IMG/VR virus record: IMGVR_UViG_3300022700_000098
Coordinates: 1-40,139 of that record
DNA length: 40,139 nt
Source: a virus
Direction: 5' to 3' (one strand)
Under the pieces are notes generated by a model. It ran no database searches, was not told where the DNA came from, and was given only the letters and a program-made list of their open reading frames with translations. The position numbers and the translations under genes were made by a program. Numbering within the stretch: position 1 is the stretch's first letter; every line of letters begins with the position of its first letter. This document shows, one piece after another, positions 2,106 through 21,043 of this stretch.

Positions 2106-3059
2106 ATGAAATGTCCTTCGAATGGTTGTAACTATGAGACTGAAAGTAAAGTTGGTTTGTCAATACATTGGGGGCGGTCAGACGACAATAGCCATCCCGG
2201 TAAACTAAAAGAAAATTATGACATAGATACATCTAGATCTGAAGAATTTAAAGATAAAGTGTCTTCTGGTCAAAAACAAAGATGGAAAAACACACCAGCA
2301 GAAGAAAAAGATAGGATCATAGAAAAAGTAGCCCAAAAAAATAGAGGTAGATCTTTAACTAAAAGTCACAAAGAAAAACTTTCTCAGGCTCTCTCTGGAG
2401 AGGACAATCCGATGTACGGAAAAGAAATGCCAGAGTCTACAAAAGAAAAAATTTCTAAGTCACTTAAATCTTGGTTTTCGAAAAATGGAACTGATCATTG
2501 TTCTGTGAATTTTGATGAAGAAACGCGACAGAAAATTTCTAACTCCGTTAAAAAACATTGGAACTCTCTTTCAAAAAATAAGAAGAAAAGTATTTGCGAT
2601 AAACGTGCAGATTCGATGAAAAAAACATGGAGTTCAAGGTCAGAGAAAGAAAGAAAAGAATGGGGGAAAAGAGTATCTGAGGGTATGATAAAAGCTGGCG
2701 TGGGTGGTTCCGAATATAATACATATGAAGTTGACGGTTTAAATCATGTAGTAAGGTCAAGTTGGGAGAAGAGAATTGCATTTATTTTACAGGACATTGG
2801 AATAAACTATGAATATGAACCTAAGTACAAGTTAAAAAACCAATATTATAAACCCGACTTTGAAACCGAAGACGGTGTTGTTATTGAAGTAAAAGGGTTT
2901 GGTGGTGAAAAAAGTGTAAATAAGGCAAAAGAGTTTATGGCGACATATAAAGATAAAAAGTATATTGTAATCGGTGACGATATACCTTCCCATTCCAGAA
3001 TTGAATACTCTAGTACCAAACAAATCAAAGAGTTCTTAATGAAAGAGATAAAATCATGA
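2106..3059 (+). CDS. Homing endonuclease with NUMOD3 motifs and PD-(D/E)xK nuclease domain
   Basis: This 317-aa protein is probably a free-standing homing endonuclease. It begins with a possible zinc-binding segment (C3, C8, H21, H30). The middle is lysine-rich with NUMOD3-type DNA-binding repeats, seen as GEDNPMYGKEMPESTKEKIS around residues 98-117 and further degenerate copies. The C-terminus carries a PD-(D/E)xK nuclease signature: P250-D251, then E261-V-K263, preceded by an RSSWEKR segment like those of phage endonucleases with this fold. Base composition is visibly more AT-rich than the flanking gp6 gene (many AAA, ATA and AAT codons), which suits recent arrival. Its stop overlaps the ATG of the next gene (ATGA at 3056). 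It sits between a truncated gene and a divergent full-length relative of that gene. The nuclease family is well supported; activity is not shown. Confidence 0.82.
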   Translation: MKCPSNGCNYETESKVGLSIHWGRSDDNSHPGKLKENYDIDTSRSEEFKDKVSSGQKQRWKNTPAEEKDRIIEKVAQKNRGRSLTKSHKEKLSQALSGEDNPMYGKEMPESTKEKISKSLKSWFSKNGTDHCSVNFDEETRQKISNSVKKHWNSLSKNKKKSICDKRADSMKKTWSSRSEKERKEWGKRVSEGMIKAGVGGSEYNTYEVDGLNHVVRSSWEKRIAFILQDIGINYEYEPKYKLKNQYYKPDFETEDGVVIEVKGFGGEKSVNKAKEFMATYKDKKYIVIGDDIPSHSRIEYSSTKQIKEFLMKEIKS

Positions 3060-10281: not shown

Positions 10282-11844
10282 ATGCTATCTGAAGATCTTC
10301 GCGCCCAACTTCTGCAGCAAATTCAAAACGAGGAAGACCTAACCGAAGAAGAAATTGTTGCGCTTCTCAACTCCGATAACGGGGAGGACGACTTTGTTCG
10401 CCGCTCTACGCTTGACGTGGAGGAAAGCGTTACAAGTTTCTTTCAACGGTTTGACCGAAACGATATTGTTCGAAACAGGCGGCAAATCGTAACTCAGGGT
10501 CTTTGGTCGGAAGGAGTGGGTCGTCTCGACTACGATTCGATGTTTACCCTTCAAGGCCAAAGAGACTCTGAAAACGGAAAATACTTTTTTGAAGTTTATG
10601 ATAAAGACCCGAATATCGATTTAGAAGCGGCTCGAATTCAGTTTGCCGTGGCATATGGGAATGAAGACGGTGGGGGAAGTGAAGAAATCGACACCGGAAA
10701 CGTTGAAGCCTTAGAGTCTACCGCAGGCGTTTATGCACAACACAAAAACGTTCTGTTTGACGTAAATGAAACAAGAGATAGCTTCTTTGATTCCGAAGGC
10801 GGTACCTTGGATTCCGGGGGGAGCGGTGCCGTTGAATTTACAAAAAGCGAAGACCTCTACGTTATTAACATATCAAGAGCACAGTACAAACAAAAGGTTG
10901 ATCCGGGGAATTGGGAACTTCGACTTCTTTTTTCTGACGGTACGCCTTCCGGATTTGATGGACCTGACGGTAGAGATTACCCAGAATTTTCTTCAAACTC
11001 TCAATACTCTGTCCTTACGCTTGTTGACGAAACTGCAGATACAGACTTCAATAACCAACAGCTAAACGCCGGAAATATTGGAAACCGCTATGAAGTATAT
11101 CAAGGATCTTTGAACTTGGATAACCCACAAACTTCAAACCCCGACGTTATTCAACCGGAAGACTATGCAGAACTCTCTGAATACCTTCCAGCAAAACCAT
11201 ACGGAGAGTTTTACCCGGACCTTGGAATCATTGTGTTGGACCCTAATATACTTCAAAGACACGCGGCGGTGTTTGGGGGGCAAGGCCCGGACAGAAACTT
11301 TAACTCGTCTACAGGGCAATACGAAGGCTTCACAAACCTTGTAACCTTTAGCGACGACTCCACAAATTACAACATCATTACCGGGCCAAGCGATATTAGT
11401 GGAGCAACAAGTGGAGAGATTCAAGACATTGAATCAATCGTTGACAGCATTCGTCCGGTAACAGACAAAGACGACAACTACAAAAACCAAGAGAAGCTGT
11501 TTAACGCCGTGAAAAACGGTGGATACTTTGTTGGAAGATCTGCCGAAGAAATTGTGTCTACTAATTACTTTGTGCGGGTCCGAAACACAGACTTCAACTT
11601 TTCAAACAACCCAACATTTACAAACGAAGACGGGACGCTTGCGATTGAAGAGTTTGAAGGAGATCCGAAGACGTTCATCACGACTGTTGGGCTTTACGAC
11701 GATGATAACAACTTGGTTGCAACGGCGAAGCTTTCAAATCCGGTTCAAAAAGACTTTCAATCGGAGCAGCTAATCAAAATCAAGCTTGATTACGTTCTTG
11801 TGATGTTTATCGCAAAGTGGGTAATGTTTGCATTAATGCTATAA
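10282..11844 (+). CDS. Virion structural protein with foreign C-terminal extension caused by endonuclease insertion
   Basis: This 520-aa protein is a paralogue of the 300-aa protein at 13878. The two share the segment around ISRAQYKQKVDPG (KVSPKEYGRKIVPG in the other) and especially the C-terminus (TTVGLYDDDNNLVATAKLSNPVQK, against TTVGLYDDFLNLIAVGKLSQPVQK). The natural end should be about KIKLDY, corresponding to IVVRFDT in the paralogue. Here, after KIKLDY at 11793, reading continues for 17 more codons, encoding a hydrophobic run (VLVMFIAKWVMFALML) that looks like read-through of inserted DNA. The family is probably a tail/baseplate protein carrying receptor-binding proteins, since each copy precedes an MPxYxRENG gene. 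The N-terminal 40 residues are helical and acidic. Confidence 0.8.
   Translation: MLSEDLRAQLLQQIQNEEDLTEEEIVALLNSDNGEDDFVRRSTLDVEESVTSFFQRFDRNDIVRNRRQIVTQGLWSEGVGRLDYDSMFTLQGQRDSENGKYFFEVYDKDPNIDLEAARIQFAVAYGNEDGGGSEEIDTGNVEALESTAGVYAQHKNVLFDVNETRDSFFDSEGGTLDSGGSGAVEFTKSEDLYVINISRAQYKQKVDPGNWELRLLFSDGTPSGFDGPDGRDYPEFSSNSQYSVLTLVDETADTDFNNQQLNAGNIGNRYEVYQGSLNLDNPQTSNPDVIQPEDYAELSEYLPAKPYGEFYPDLGIIVLDPNILQRHAAVFGGQGPDRNFNSSTGQYEGFTNLVTFSDDSTNYNIITGPSDISGATSGEIQDIESIVDSIRPVTDKDDNYKNQEKLFNAVKNGGYFVGRSAEEIVSTNYFVRVRNTDFNFSNNPTFTNEDGTLAIEEFEGDPKTFITTVGLYDDDNNLVATAKLSNPVQKDFQSEQLIKIKLDYVLVMFIAKWVMFALML
11776..11793 (+). repeat. 5' copy of 18-bp repeat bracketing endonuclease cassette
   Basis: AAAATCAAGCTTGATTAC is matched at 16 of 18 positions by the segment at 12648-12665. 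Both copies read I-K-L-D-Y in the frame used, and the two differences are synonymous (AAG/AAA, CTT/CTC). The segment marks the 5' edge of inserted DNA; joining the two copies would restore the 3' end of the structural gene including its TAA. Confidence 0.85.
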
Positions 11845-11846
11845 AT

Positions 11847-12668
11847 ATGAAAAATTTAATGAGTATTGAGTGTCAGATATGCAACCAAATCTTTTCAGGA
11901 ATGAAAGGGTTTGCTGCTCATATAAGGTCTCATGAAATCAATTATTACGATTATGTAAAAAAATACGTTAACCATGTTCCTAATTATGAAAGGTGTGAAA
12001 TTTGTGACAAAGTAACAAAAGTGCGCGGAAATTCTTTTGTCACATGTTCAAATCAGTGTAAAAATGAGTGGAAATCTCAAAATTGGCGAGGTAAAAACCA
12101 TCCCATGTATGGAAGATCACACACAAAAGAAACTAAGCGTAAAATTTCTGAAAAGGCCAAAGATCGCCTGAAAGATCCCCAAAACCATCACATGTATGGG
12201 AAATCACACTCAGATGAGACAAAACGAAAAATAAGCAATTCACACAAAAAGCTTTATGAAAATGGCTACGTGAATCCAATGAAAGGAAATACCCATTCTA
12301 AGAATACTATAAAAAAGATTTTTTCTAGTTGGGAAGATTCTTCAGCAGAAAAATGTGTTATGAATGTTTTAAATAGTCACGAAATAAACTACACACACCA
12401 GTTTTTCCTTCAGACTGACGATGGAGATACTAAGTCCTACGATTTTTATATTCCTAAATACAACACCTTATTAGAAGTAGATGGAGACTATTGGCACGGT
12501 GGCCCTAAATATAACAAACATTTCAAAGGTGTAAAAAAAGTTAAAGAAAACGATAGATTAAAAGATAACCTTGCAAAAGAAAGTGGTTATAACATCGTGC
12601 GAGTTTGGGAAAGTGAAATTGAAAAGAAAAAAGATATAGTTGTAGAAAAAATCAAACTCGATTACTAA
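11847..12668 (+). CDS. Homing endonuclease, Vsr-like/EDxHD type with NUMOD3 motifs
   Basis: This 273-aa protein starts at ATG 11847, just after the 520-aa gene stops; an in-frame GTG at 11817 would overlap that gene and is less likely. It begins with a C2H2 zinc finger (C9, C12, H25, H29), then a second CxxC...CxxxC zinc-ribbon-like segment. Three NUMOD3-like repeats follow (NHPMYGRSHTKETKRKISEK and similar). The C-terminal nuclease domain resembles very-short-patch-repair/EDxHD homing enzymes such as I-Bth0305I. It has YDFYIPKYNTLLEVDGDYWHG with D199, E210, D212 and H217, then a K-E-N-D-x3-K segment and VRVWESEI. Composition is AT-rich compared with its neighbours. Its last residues, KIKLDY, duplicate the natural end of the host gene, so the enzyme uses the host gene's stop codon. 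Confidence 0.87.
   Translation: MKNLMSIECQICNQIFSGMKGFAAHIRSHEINYYDYVKKYVNHVPNYERCEICDKVTKVRGNSFVTCSNQCKNEWKSQNWRGKNHPMYGRSHTKETKRKISEKAKDRLKDPQNHHMYGKSHSDETKRKISNSHKKLYENGYVNPMKGNTHSKNTIKKIFSSWEDSSAEKCVMNVLNSHEINYTHQFFLQTDDGDTKSYDFYIPKYNTLLEVDGDYWHGGPKYNKHFKGVKKVKENDRLKDNLAKESGYNIVRVWESEIEKKKDIVVEKIKLDY
12648..12665 (+). repeat. 3' copy of 18-bp repeat bracketing endonuclease cassette
   Basis: AAAATCAAACTCGATTAC, followed directly by TAA, is the partner of 11776-11793. It forms the last codons of the endonuclease gene and probably represents the original 3' end of the 520-aa structural gene, or that of a related donor phage. Confidence 0.85.
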
Positions 12669-16196: not shown

Positions 16197-16748
16197 ATGA
16201 AAAAAGTTGCAGGACTTGACCTTTCAACAACCGTGGCCGGATTTGCAATTATGTCCGAAGACGGGGAACTTATATCTTACGACTGGCACAAATTCAAAAA
16301 AGACAGCGATTACGATCTCATTGATCTTGTCGAGCAGTTTGATGAAAACGTGTGGCCGGAAATCAAAGACGCCGACGCCGTTGTTTTGGAAGACGCTTTG
16401 AAAAACTACGGGGGCATGACCACAACTACCTCAATTAGCGTTCTTCTCCAGTTCAACGCGATCATCGAGTATGAACTAATAAAACGTCTTGGCAAAGACG
16501 CCGTTGAAAAAATCCATCCGTCTACGGCAAAGAAAAATAGCTTCCTTGACCGGGGACGGGTTCCATCTTCGTATTCTAGCCCGTGGTCTACGTATAAAGA
16601 CTCAAAGGGATGGATCATCGAAGAGGTGTCGAACCATTACGGCATTGAGTGGGAACTAACAAGATCTGGAAATCCAAGGCCGGGGTCAGACGACGCCGCA
16701 GACGCTGTGATACTGGCAAGCTCTTACGTTCAAGAGAACTTTACATAA
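16197..16748 (+). CDS. RuvC-like Holliday-junction resolvase
   Basis: This 183-aa protein has an RNase H/RuvC fold. Acidic catalytic residues appear in the expected places: D8 in KVAGLDLSTT (first strand), E65 in AVVLEDAL (fourth strand), and D165/D166/D169 in GSDDAADAVILA (last helix). RuvC-type resolvases cut four-way DNA junctions. In a phage this debranches replicated DNA before packaging, the task done in T4 by the unrelated endonuclease VII (gp49). It is the only gene here with a good Shine-Dalgarno-like sequence (AGAGGTG, six bases before ATG). It heads a three-gene DNA-metabolism group but is separated from the other two by a strong hairpin terminator. Confidence 0.85.
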   Translation: MKKVAGLDLSTTVAGFAIMSEDGELISYDWHKFKKDSDYDLIDLVEQFDENVWPEIKDADAVVLEDALKNYGGMTTTTSISVLLQFNAIIEYELIKRLGKDAVEKIHPSTAKKNSFLDRGRVPSSYSSPWSTYKDSKGWIIEEVSNHYGIEWELTRSGNPRPGSDDAADAVILASSYVQENFT

Positions 16749-16865: not shown

Positions 16866-17810
16866 ATGGACAAGAAGAAAAAGGTCTTAGACGTTCTCAC
16901 AACGGTTTTAGGAAGCGACTACCGGGAAGTAAACAAAGGAGAACACCTGTTTCACTGCAGGTTCTGTGGTCATCACAAAAAGAAGTTGTCGGTGAATCTA
17001 GACCCGTCGAAGCAGGAGTTTGGGTTTTACAAGTGTTGGGTATGCAAGGAGAGCGGGAAGAGTTTGTTTACGCTTTTGAAAAAGCTCAACGCTTCTTCAC
17101 ATCTTTTCAAGAAGCTTTCAAAGGCTTTAGACAGGCCATCGTACGGAGGCAAACGGGACAAGCCATCTTCTAGCGTTGACGTTCTCTCGCTTCCAGAAGA
17201 GTATAAGCCAATGTGGGAAGAGCATCCGGGCTATGAGTGGAACTATGCTTATAACTACCTTCAAAAGCGGGGAATTACTCGTGGAGACATGATAAAGTAT
17301 AAGATTGGTTGGTGCAAAGAGGGAAAATACCAGCACCGAATCGTTATCCCAAGCTACGATGAAGACGGGGATCTAAACTACTTTACCGGAAGAGATTTCT
17401 TTGGCAGTTCGTCTTTGAAATACTTAAACCCCAAGACTTCAAGGAACGTCATTATATTTGACAACCTCATTGACTGGTCGGAACCTCTTACGATTGTGGA
17501 AGGGGTGTTTGACGCTATGGCTTGTAGACGAAACGCTACCTGTCTTATGAGCAAAAAGATTCACTCTAGACTCTTTAACAAAATCTTAATCACAAATCCT
17601 CCACACATCAATTTGATGCTTGACGGAGACGCCTTTGAAGCGGGGGTTGAAATCTCTGAAAAGCTGTTGAACCAAGGGCAGGACGTTCGGCTTGTTAAAC
17701 TTGAAGACAAAGACCCCGCAGACCTTGGATTTTCCGGAAGCTGGAAACGGATGAAAAACGAACCTCAACTCGACTTTGAAGAGTTAATTAAACACAAGGT
17801 TTCACTTTAG
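16866..17810 (+). CDS. DnaG-type DNA primase (T4 gp61-like role)
   Basis: This 314-aa protein starts with a CHC2-type zinc finger using C31, C34, C57 and C60 (CRFCGHHKKKLSVN ... YKCWVC), which in primases reads the template. A central region (YLQKRGITRGDMIKYKIGW, then YFTGRDF) matches the DnaG core. The Toprim domain follows with E212 in TIVEGVFDAMAC and D253-x-D255 in NLMLDGDAFEAG, the metal-binding residues for RNA-primer synthesis. Length is close to T4 gp61 (342 aa). No helicase domain is fused, so a separate helicase must be supplied elsewhere. It follows the terminator at 16783, so it is probably transcribed from its own start. Confidence 0.9.
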   Translation: MDKKKKVLDVLTTVLGSDYREVNKGEHLFHCRFCGHHKKKLSVNLDPSKQEFGFYKCWVCKESGKSLFTLLKKLNASSHLFKKLSKALDRPSYGGKRDKPSSSVDVLSLPEEYKPMWEEHPGYEWNYAYNYLQKRGITRGDMIKYKIGWCKEGKYQHRIVIPSYDEDGDLNYFTGRDFFGSSSLKYLNPKTSRNVIIFDNLIDWSEPLTIVEGVFDAMACRRNATCLMSKKIHSRLFNKILITNPPHINLMLDGDAFEAGVEISEKLLNQGQDVRLVKLEDKDPADLGFSGSWKRMKNEPQLDFEELIKHKVSL

Positions 17811-17872: not shown

Positions 17873-20800
17873 ATGAAAACGGTTGACATTGGAGTTGAAA
17901 ATGTAACAGAGATATTTCAGATTGCAGACGTTCATATCCGAACGCTAAAAAGACACGACGAATACAAAGAAGTGTTTGAAAACCTGTATGAAGAAATAGA
18001 AAATCGAAAAACAGAGGGAAGCGTTATTGCCCTTTTGGGGGATATCGTTCATGCTAAAACCGACCTCACGCCGGAACTTGTGGACGTGGCTTCAAACTTT
18101 TTGAAGCGTCTATCTTCTGTTGCTCCGGTTATTTTGATTCCGGGAAACCACGATGAAAATTTGGTTAGCCCTGACCGAATGGACAGCCTTACGCCGATTG
18201 TAAGAAATATCGACACGTCACGGATCTACTATAGCAGAGAGACGGAAGTATTTGACGTAGGTGGGGTGGCGTTTATCCACATGAGCCAGCTTGACAAGCC
18301 AAAAAACTACCCGAAAGCAAACTCTATTCCCGATTCGAAACCAAAGGTTGCCTTGTATCACGGCGTTGTAAACGGTGCGGTGACGGACACCGGATGGACA
18401 TTAAGTTCCGAAGAGGTGAACGCTGGAATGTTTGAAGGGTACGATATAACCCTTTTGGGTGATATTCACAAGCGACAGTTTTTAGATTCAAATGAGAGGG
18501 TTCTGTACTCTGGAAGCCTAGTTCAGCAAAATCACGGAGAACCTGTTTCCGGGCATGGGGTGAATTTCTGGGATGTTGGAAACAAGGAAGTGGAGTTTAT
18601 TCCGGTAGAAAACGACTACGGGTTCTACACCTTGGATGTAGAAAACGGGGCATACCCGGTTCCGGAAGACGTTCCAAAGAAGCCAAGACTTCGCCTTCGA
18701 GTAAAAAATACAGATCCGGTAGAAACGAAACGTATTGTAGCGGACCTTCGGAAGATGTATGACGTGCAAGAAGTTTCTGTGAACAGGTCTGGAATCGGGG
18801 GGTCTGTTCAAAACCAAAATGGAGAGTCTTCTCTTGAAATCGGAAACGTACAAGACACAGAGCGCCAAAACGAACTTATCGAAACGTATTTGACCGATTC
18901 TCAAAACGTTAGCGAAGAGGTTCTTCAAAACATCCGGTCTATCAACAGAGACTTAAATTCAGAGGTTAAGAAGTGGGAAAACCGGAGCCTAAGTTGGAAG
19001 TTGAAAAGATTTGAATTTTCAAACATGTTCTCTTATGGGGAGGACAACACAATCGACTTCACACAGGCAAACGGGATCATTGGAATCTTTGCGGATAACG
19101 CAAGCGGAAAGTCCTCCATTCTTGACGCGGTTAGCTACTGCCTTTTTGACAGATGCTCTAGAACCCGAAAGTCAAAGAAGGTTCTAAACAACGACTCCGA
19201 CTGGTTTTCTTCAAAAGCGGTTCTTGAAATCAACGGAAAGGAATATGTGATCGAACGAAGCGGGGAGAAAAAAGGGCACCAAGGCCGGGTCCCTGTGGAC
19301 GTAAACTTTTACGTCAAAGAAGAAACGGGAAGCACAACGTCTTTGAATGGAAAGAGAAGGCGGGACACAAATCGAATCATTCGAGAGTATATCGGTGAAT
19401 ACGAAGACTTTGTAACGACTGCCCTTTCCACGCAGACGGACGGAACTGTGTTTGTTGAAAAGACACAAGCGGAAAGGAAGGATATGCTTTCCCGATTTAT
19501 TGGAATCGACGTGTTTGACCGTCTCCACGACAAGGCCAAAGAACGACGTAGAGAGGCTACAACGCTTCTTAAAGAGTATGAGGGGGACAGCCTATCCGAA
19601 GACATAGCATCGGCAGAGAAGCGGTATGAGAGGGCTTTAGACGCCTATCAAAAGTTTTCAAAGAAAGAAGAAGACCTTGAAGACAAGATTGAATCTAAAA
19701 ATAAGCGTCTTGTCTCGCTAAACCAAAAGTTAAGAGACGTTCCCGGCGAAGACGTAGACATTTCTTCACTCAAAGAGAGAAAAAGTCAGCTTGAAAACGA
19801 AAAAGAGTCTGTAAAAGACAAGGTTGAGCACTTCCAAATCAAGAAAAGAGAGAAGCAACAGCCGCTTGAAGGGTACAAAGAACTTCTTGAAAATTCGTTT
19901 GATGTAAAAGAGGTAGAGCGTCGGTATAAGCGTTGGAAAGAGAAGAAAGAACAGCTTGCAGAAAACAAAACCCGCGCCAAAAACCTAAAAGACAGAAGAA
20001 GCCAGCTTAAAGATTCAATCGAACACATCGAGTCTCATTCCGAGTTTGATCCCGACTGCAAGTACTGTGTTCGAAGAAACGAAAAAGACGCGAAAAAACT
20101 CGAAGAATACAAGCAAGATCTTCAATCGGTTGAATCGAAATTTCAAACCATTATTTCCAAGTCTAAGAAGCTAAAAGAAAAGGTAAACGACGAAAGCGCA
20201 AAAGAAGATTACGAGCGAGTAAACGAAATTCAAGGCAAGATTGAGTCCATAAAGACCAAAGTGAACGGGTTTCAATCCAAGGCCAACGAGAAAGAGGTTG
20301 AACTTTCCAAGGTAGAAAGCAAGCTTTCAAACGTCCAGTCTCAAATTGAGGGTTACGAGAAGAGAAAAGAGGACATAAAACACAATCGCAAGGTTCAAGG
20401 CAAGATTGACCCGTTGAAAGACGAAATTTTCGAGCTTGAAGAGGAAAAGAAAGAGGCTTCAAGCATGGCCCGTGAAAAGCACTCTGAAATGAAGGTTGCC
20501 GAAAGAGACAAAGAAGAGGCCACCCAGAAGTTGAACAAGTACCGGAAGCTAAAGAAGGAAAATCGGGCATACGAATATTATCTTGAAGCCACAAAAAGAG
20601 ACGGGGTGCCATACGAACTTATTGGGAGAGCAATGCCAACGATTGAAAGCGAAGTCAACTCAATTCTTTCAAGTATGGTTGAATTTACCGTTTCAATGGA
20701 GCTTGACGGAAAAAACGTAGACGCCTTTATAAATTATGGCGAGGACACGTGGCCTTTAGAAATTGCTTCAAACTTTGAGCGGTTTATTTCAAGCCTTGCG

Positions 20801-21043
20801 ATCCGAATTGCTCTTATTAACGTTGCAAACCTTCCAAGCCCGAACTTTCTTGCAATCGATGAAGGGTTTTCGTCCGCAGACCGGACAAACCTAAACAACA
20901 TGGGTCTTTTGTTTGACTACCTGAAGACTCAATTCCAATTTGCGGTCGTGATCTCGCACGTGGATATGATGAGAGACATGGTTGACGACCTAATGGAGAT
21001 CCGGTCTTCGGGAAAGGAAAAAAGCAAAGTAACCTATATATAA
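17873..21043 (+). CDS. 47-46: Fused recombination nuclease/ATPase (gp47-gp46, Mre11-Rad50, SbcD-SbcC in one chain)
   Basis: This 1056-aa protein joins two proteins that are normally separate. Residues 1-about 375 are the calcineurin-like nuclease: D19-x-H21, G56-D57 with H60, G91-N92-H93-D94, then LYHGVV and LLGDIHKRQ, completing the two-metal site. Residues about 380-1056 are the SMC-like ATPase. They show a Walker A (GIFADNASGKSS, 404-415), long coiled coils at about 580-720 and 740-930, a zinc hook C729-K-Y-C732 at the tip, and a Walker B (FLAIDEG, D996-E997). In T4, gp46 and gp47 resect DNA ends for recombination-dependent replication. The single continuous frame has no internal stop, and a linker (RSLSWKLKRFEFSNM) joins the parts. 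Start at ATG 17873 after an A-rich leader. Confidence 0.93.
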   Translation: MKTVDIGVENVTEIFQIADVHIRTLKRHDEYKEVFENLYEEIENRKTEGSVIALLGDIVHAKTDLTPELVDVASNFLKRLSSVAPVILIPGNHDENLVSPDRMDSLTPIVRNIDTSRIYYSRETEVFDVGGVAFIHMSQLDKPKNYPKANSIPDSKPKVALYHGVVNGAVTDTGWTLSSEEVNAGMFEGYDITLLGDIHKRQFLDSNERVLYSGSLVQQNHGEPVSGHGVNFWDVGNKEVEFIPVENDYGFYTLDVENGAYPVPEDVPKKPRLRLRVKNTDPVETKRIVADLRKMYDVQEVSVNRSGIGGSVQNQNGESSLEIGNVQDTERQNELIETYLTDSQNVSEEVLQNIRSINRDLNSEVKKWENRSLSWKLKRFEFSNMFSYGEDNTIDFTQANGIIGIFADNASGKSSILDAVSYCLFDRCSRTRKSKKVLNNDSDWFSSKAVLEINGKEYVIERSGEKKGHQGRVPVDVNFYVKEETGSTTSLNGKRRRDTNRIIREYIGEYEDFVTTALSTQTDGTVFVEKTQAERKDMLSRFIGIDVFDRLHDKAKERRREATTLLKEYEGDSLSEDIASAEKRYERALDAYQKFSKKEEDLEDKIESKNKRLVSLNQKLRDVPGEDVDISSLKERKSQLENEKESVKDKVEHFQIKKREKQQPLEGYKELLENSFDVKEVERRYKRWKEKKEQLAENKTRAKNLKDRRSQLKDSIEHIESHSEFDPDCKYCVRRNEKDAKKLEEYKQDLQSVESKFQTIISKSKKLKEKVNDESAKEDYERVNEIQGKIESIKTKVNGFQSKANEKEVELSKVESKLSNVQSQIEGYEKRKEDIKHNRKVQGKIDPLKDEIFELEEEKKEASSMAREKHSEMKVAERDKEEATQKLNKYRKLKKENRAYEYYLEATKRDGVPYELIGRAMPTIESEVNSILSSMVEFTVSMELDGKNVDAFINYGEDTWPLEIASNFERFISSLAIRIALINVANLPSPNFLAIDEGFSSADRTNLNNMGLLFDYLKTQFQFAVVISHVDMMRDMVDDLMEIRSSGKEKSKVTYI

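Follow-up and report, generated by a model that had tools for sequence, protein, structure and literature searches.

The locus and its genes

The window analysed here, 40,139 nucleotides of a viral record, carries one long gene that joins an Mre11/SbcD-type nuclease to a Rad50/SbcC-type ATPase (Table 1). The stop-to-stop frame spans 1068 codons, and its 1056-residue translation contains no stop, bearing out a sequence-only reading of this DNA that had placed both activities in one uninterrupted frame. The layout is that of a fusion, with the nuclease first, a short linker, and the ATPase following in the same frame. Pfam recognizes Metallophos at residues 14-200 (5e-9) and AAA_23 at 383-621 (9e-13), and the PHROGs match is to SbcC-like family 77 over residues 351-1044. 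The window also encodes a terminase and portal of T4 type.

Table 1. Features of the fused gene and of other genes in the window
Feature	Coordinates	Strand	Basis or remark
Fused Mre11/SbcD-Rad50/SbcC gene	17873..21043	+	Single open frame, 1056 aa
Nuclease core, residues 1-250	17873..18622	+	Calcineurin-like phosphoesterase; Pfam Metallophos, SbcD/Mre11 fold, conserved columns
Metal-site residues of the nuclease core	within 17873..18622	+	D19, H21, D57, N92, H93, H163, D197, H199
GDIH metal-site motif, residues 196-199	18458..18469	+	Asp197; the position is His in split phage, T4 and E. coli nucleases
Capping domain, residues 251-306	18623..18790	+	Strand-helix-strand; models, aligned to SbcD capping domain
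Mre11 Rad50-binding helix-loop-helix, residues 329-364	18857..18964	+	Two helices in both models; covered by 6s6v_A, 7yzo_B, 6s85_B
Linker, residues 365-374	18965..18994	+	Low pLDDT at 368-374; connects what were two proteins
Rad50/SbcC ATPase lobe I, residues 375-545	18995..19507	+	Pfam AAA_23; structural match to E. coli SbcC
Walker A, residues 404-415 (GIFADNASGKSS)	19082..19117	+	Sequence
Antiparallel coiled coil, residues 546-907	19508..20593	+	Predicted helices in model
Zinc-hook motif CKYC, residues 729-732	20057..20068	+	Sequence
ATPase lobe II, residues 908-1056	20594..21040	+	Signature Ser966, Walker B D996-E997, D1003, H1029
DnaG-type primase, conserved partner upstream of the fusion	16866..17810	+	PHROG 47, 8e-50
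RuvC-like Holliday-junction resolvase	16197..16748	+	PHROG 159, 2e-6
NUMOD3/HNH homing-endonuclease-like gene	11817-12668	+	At 3' end of gene 10282-11844
Second NUMOD3 endonuclease-like gene	2106-3059	+	Downstream of baseplate gene ending at 1875

The motifs named in the sequence-only reading all fall at the residues it assigned, both in the nuclease (D19-x-H21, G56-D57, G91-N92-H93-D94) and in the ATPase (Walker A G404-S415, hook C729-KY-C732, Walker B D996-E997). We add H163 and G196-D197-I-H199 to the former set, and Q521 (Q-loop), S966 (signature), D1003 (D-loop) and H1029 (H-loop) to the latter. The Mre11/SbcD metal-site set (DxH, GD, GNHD, H, GxxH) is present with Asp rather than His at one ligand position; all catalytic residues are kept, this one (Asp197) as a conservative change. 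The split ABC head of Rad50/SbcC is complete, with G412-K413, Q521, S966, D996-E997, D1003 and H1029 in place.

We built two AlphaFold models from the window protein and its contig relatives, one of the whole chain and one of residues 1-374. The shorter model (mean pLDDT 83, pTM 0.83) matches 7dog_A, the nuclease and capping domains of Staphylococcus aureus SbcD, with Z 24.5. The E. coli SbcD chains 7yzo_B and 6s85_B, taken from SbcCD head complexes, align over window residues 12-374, a span that takes in both the capping domain and the Rad50-binding helices. Residues 375-1056 of the whole-chain model (mean pLDDT 76) match E. coli SbcC 7yzo_D with Z 32.0, and the coiled coil bears its CxxC hook at the apex. 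The whole-chain pTM of 0.46 means that this model does not fix the placement of the two halves relative to each other. The fusion therefore unites two complete proteins, without loss at the junction.

Extent of the family and gene neighbourhood

The fused family is carried by hundreds of viral contigs. A plain-query search for related loci returned 34 viral loci and an alignment-based search at least 584, and nine further loci lie in bacterial genomes or metagenome-assembled genomes; the relatives are mostly on metagenomic contigs. A homologue of the upstream primase was found in 121 of 132 loci, and in the 60 nearest cases listed it lies directly upstream, touching or overlapping the fusion frame.

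In seven of the nine records searched, no strong Rad50-like match was found besides the fused chain. A 223-kb sister contig, which may be incomplete, has no Rad50/SbcC-like match other than this chain, and it gives a weak RecA-type match. The 735-kb phage LR756501 encodes both a fused chain and, separately, an SbcC-like gene (670999-672753 and 278537-282124). The region of the separate SbcC-like match contains stop codons, one TAG and three TAA.

Phylogeny and a metal-site mark

With E. coli SbcCD as the root, the tree sets the split pairs of T4, Serratia phage BF and the Herelleviridae (support 0.98) apart from all fused proteins (0.94), and the window protein belongs to a clade whose 106 members are fused or insertion-interrupted (support 1.0). 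At the metal site, the GDIH position is Asp in all fused proteins examined and His in the six split references. This invariance is partly circular for the at least 584 viral and nine bacterial loci, which were searched with a GDIH pattern, and holds independently in the 34 plain-query viral loci and in phages Mel-JY01 and LR756508.

Two other motifs vary within the family. The DxH metal motif reads DxQ (His21 to Gln) in 20 fused relatives, among them L054, L063, L078, L124, L126, L039 and L042; judged by this substitution, the nuclease of these phages is possibly altered or inactive. In the alignment, L015, L016, L018, L128, L129 and L131 have no second Cys in the CxxC of the hook. In the first three of these, a PCGDxFPxCK motif, with two Cys six residues apart, occupies the hook position.

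A clade in which the chain was probably broken again

The less expected result of the analysis lies outside the window. A clade within the fused part of the tree has nuclease and ATPase as two genes again (L021-L031, plus 68 retrieved loci), and its sampled members, seven of which were placed in the tree, are nested among fused forms. The re-split nuclease ends at window residue 262, in the middle of the capping domain. In 67 of the 68 loci the nuclease piece lies upstream of the ATPase, with the break at the same place and roughly 190-2150 bases between the two.

What the nuclease has lost, the ATPase carries. Residues 7-124 of the re-split ATPase align by BLASTP to residues 266-377 of the LR756501 fused protein (E 4e-8), and hhalign matches this N-terminus with probability 100 to the fused profile, starting shortly ahead of the helix pair; hmmsearch with the same N-terminus, unlike these two methods, gave no match. 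The re-split "Rad50" carries the second half of the Mre11 capping domain together with the Rad50-binding helices. A topology that unites all fused proteins to the exclusion of the re-split group is rejected (AU p = 0.004, 25 taxa); support for the sister of that group differs by half, 0.99 for the nuclease and 0.75 for the ATPase. The simplest reading is that this architecture arose through fusion and then a second break at a new point. The phage fusion is probably an old, stable state, marked by the His-to-Asp change in the metal site, that was later re-broken within the capping domain in one clade.

Insertions at conserved sites

Insertions recur at two sites in these genes. The ATPase of some re-split phages is interrupted precisely at Walker A by an intein-like sequence (GGK/C...HN/TT, slashes marking the breaks). 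Seven loci (L168, L171, L180, L185, L186, L188, L194) have the gene split there, as by a putative split intein, following a short N-part of roughly 30 residues and with 31-1503 bases in between; in L186 this interval contains an endonuclease-like gene. In L172 and L178 the intein-like copies at Walker A are in frame. Pfam gave only a sub-threshold intein match for this sequence.

The second site closely follows the catalytic GDIH loop of the nuclease, with insertions in L020 (5675-6555), L035 (4708-5614), L030, L165, L167, L172, L187, L199 and L200. The inserts of L020, L035 and L187 contain endonuclease-like genes, with weak Vsr-, TnsA- or PvuRts1-like Pfam matches. Self-splicing introns were considered for these insertions, and no meaningful Rfam match was found in L020, L035 or L030.

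The window itself holds two endonuclease-like genes of the NUMOD3 type. The insert at 11817-12668 ends in a near copy of the tail of its host gene (AAAATCAAGCTTGATTAC versus AAAATCAAACTCGATTAC, then TAA), and the upstream gene accordingly continues for 16 codons into the insert.

One chain, and what it may do

Other fused homologues, for which the sequence-only reading had proposed a search, exist in number: both halves lie in a single frame in 104 loci, a few of them the same contig repeated. The linker from helix pair to ATPase is 10-13 residues long in all 111 aligned sequences and 11 in 96 of them. Comparison with an 86%-identical sister gene (L002) gives dN 0.083 and dS 1.443 (dN/dS ~0.06) for the whole gene and pN 0.04 and pS 0.94 for the ten linker codons, and at the codon level the gene, linker included, is under purifying selection that is continuous across the junction. 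Because 104 loci share the same single frame and selection runs through the linker, a hidden stop or frameshift between the halves is indirectly excluded as judged from sequence, and the 104 homologous frames and dN/dS rule out a frameshift or assembly artefact for the family. The annotated Mel-JY01, pT24 and PTm1 records are fused as well, and it is scarcely credible that two ordinary genes were artificially joined here by a sequencing or assembly error hiding a stop and start at residues 360-385. A genuine fusion might nevertheless yield two working proteins, either because translation also starts internally near codon 377 or because the linker is cleaved by a protease. The linker is predicted to be flexible. 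Among candidate internal starts only TTG codon 377 is preceded by anything resembling a Shine-Dalgarno sequence, a weak GGAG at a distance of 13 bases, and translation from it would yield a Rad50 beginning near its canonical N-terminus. In the 86%-identical sister, however, this codon reads TTA, and 72 of 111 homologues have proline there; the lack of conservation speaks against a start at this position, and initiation at the next Met (385) would remove the first ATPase strand. The linker also shows no overlapping signal, its synonymous sites being nearly saturated over only ten codons, and we regard a two-protein product as very unlikely.

Another job for the single chain, with changed nuclease chemistry, we consider unlikely, be it host-DNA attack, counter-defence or an SMC-like structural role. 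This idea draws on the His-to-Asp change in GDIH across the fused lineage, on the DxQ motif of the 20 relatives, and on the separate SbcC-like gene that LR756501 has in addition to its fused copy. The remaining catalytic residues are nevertheless nearly invariant, the primase neighbourhood is conserved, and in most of the records searched the fused chain is the sole strong Rad50-like match. Because Asp197 replaces a His ligand and the 20 relatives replace His21 by Gln, nuclease specificity may still differ from that of Mre11.

Very probably, then, the gene encodes a single-chain Mre11-Rad50 (SbcCD, gp47-gp46) enzyme. The fused gene is real, intact and common in environmental phages, and forms an old, selected phage gene family adjoining a primase gene. 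SbcCD and gp46/gp47 carry out ATP-gated end processing and tethering for recombination-dependent replication, T4 gp46/gp47 supplying 3' ends for this replication and for end repair. By analogy, the fused enzyme most likely takes part in ATP-gated DNA-end processing and tethering for recombination-dependent replication. Two fused copies would pair through their nuclease domains and ATP-bound heads into the usual 2+2 complex, each Rad50-binding helix pair clamping a coiled-coil base, either its own (cis) or its partner's (trans). ATP-driven opening would expose DNA ends to the nuclease, and the phage recombinase would then use the resected or unblocked 3' end in recombination-dependent replication and end repair, as with T4 gp46/gp47.

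The sequence-only reading had described a natural single-chain version of the complex, and a gp47/SbcD/Mre11 nuclease fused ahead of a gp46/SbcC/Rad50 ATPase is what we find. Its further point, that fusion fixes 1:1 stoichiometry, is a fair inference that adds little, as separate Mre11 and Rad50 already assemble 2:2; fusion may mainly secure co-synthesis and assembly rather than a new activity. The result is an abundant, intact, roughly 120-kDa single-chain Mre11-Rad50 family suited to structural and single-molecule work on the ATP-gated nuclease, and convenient for studies of the gating because the chain cannot come apart.

Comparison with known systems

The sequence-only reading was wrong to hold that nuclease and ATPase are always separate elsewhere. 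Yoshida, Claverie and Ogata described thirteen Mre11/Rad50 fusions in 2011 (PMC3175470), in Mimivirus (R555), Bacillus phage 0305phi8-36, bacterial plasmids (Deferribacter, Clostridium kluyveri) and chromosomes, and eukaryotes, and further phage cases stand in sequence records. They made the case that genes like R555 abound among aquatic viruses, found ocean-survey relatives of R555 on scaffolds with phage genes such as primases, and inferred aquatic phages as the carriers (PMC3175470). The phage Mre11-Rad50 fusion is thus a kind known since 2011, to which the window gene adds a well-supported example without being a new type of enzyme; new here is how extensive, complete and conserved the fused family of phages is. 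Beyond PMC3175470 we found no later papers on phage Mre11/Rad50 fusions in the open-licence literature, and a jumbo-phage review mentions SbcC and SbcD but no fusions.

Like the 2011 fusions, the window protein has the nuclease first and the ATPase second and keeps the capping and helix-loop-helix region. Its linker length fits the 9-12 residues estimated from a gap of ~28 angstrom in T. maritima Mre11-Rad50 (PMC3175470). Its Asp197 corresponds to the Asp that R555, compared by its published text, has where P. furiosus Mre11 has His206 (PMC3175470). R555 is longer, at 1351 aa against 1056 aa, and the Bacillus phage 0305phi8-36 fusion reportedly lacks the capping/HLH stretch and one ATPase segment, both of which the window protein has (PMC3175470).

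Further relatives come from phages. Microcystis phage Mel-JY01 encodes a full-length homologue (WWT39521.1, 1066 aa, 36% identity) with a primase-like gene annotated upstream. Uncultured phage LR756508 has another, at 40% identity and also with an upstream primase homologue, but with an endonuclease-like gene inserted in the nuclease part. The proteins of Tenacibaculum phages pT24 and PTm1, annotated "metallo-phosphoesterase" (1310-1318 aa), are fused as well, yet they are distant, carry DxQ rather than DxH, and lie near the re-split group in the tree.

T4 gp47/gp46, the SbcD/SbcC-like pairs of the Herelleviridae and E. coli SbcCD share the domains, their order and the motifs of the window protein and likely serve the same pathway. 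They differ in being two genes, in having His in the GDIH motif and in occupying a separate tree branch; T4 genes 47 and 46 stand apart, whereas the window gene is one frame. Among the relatives, phages encode the same enzyme by two genes, by a single gene, or as a chain broken anew elsewhere, so that nature has in effect run a domain-boundary experiment on which contacts need a covalent link and which can do without.
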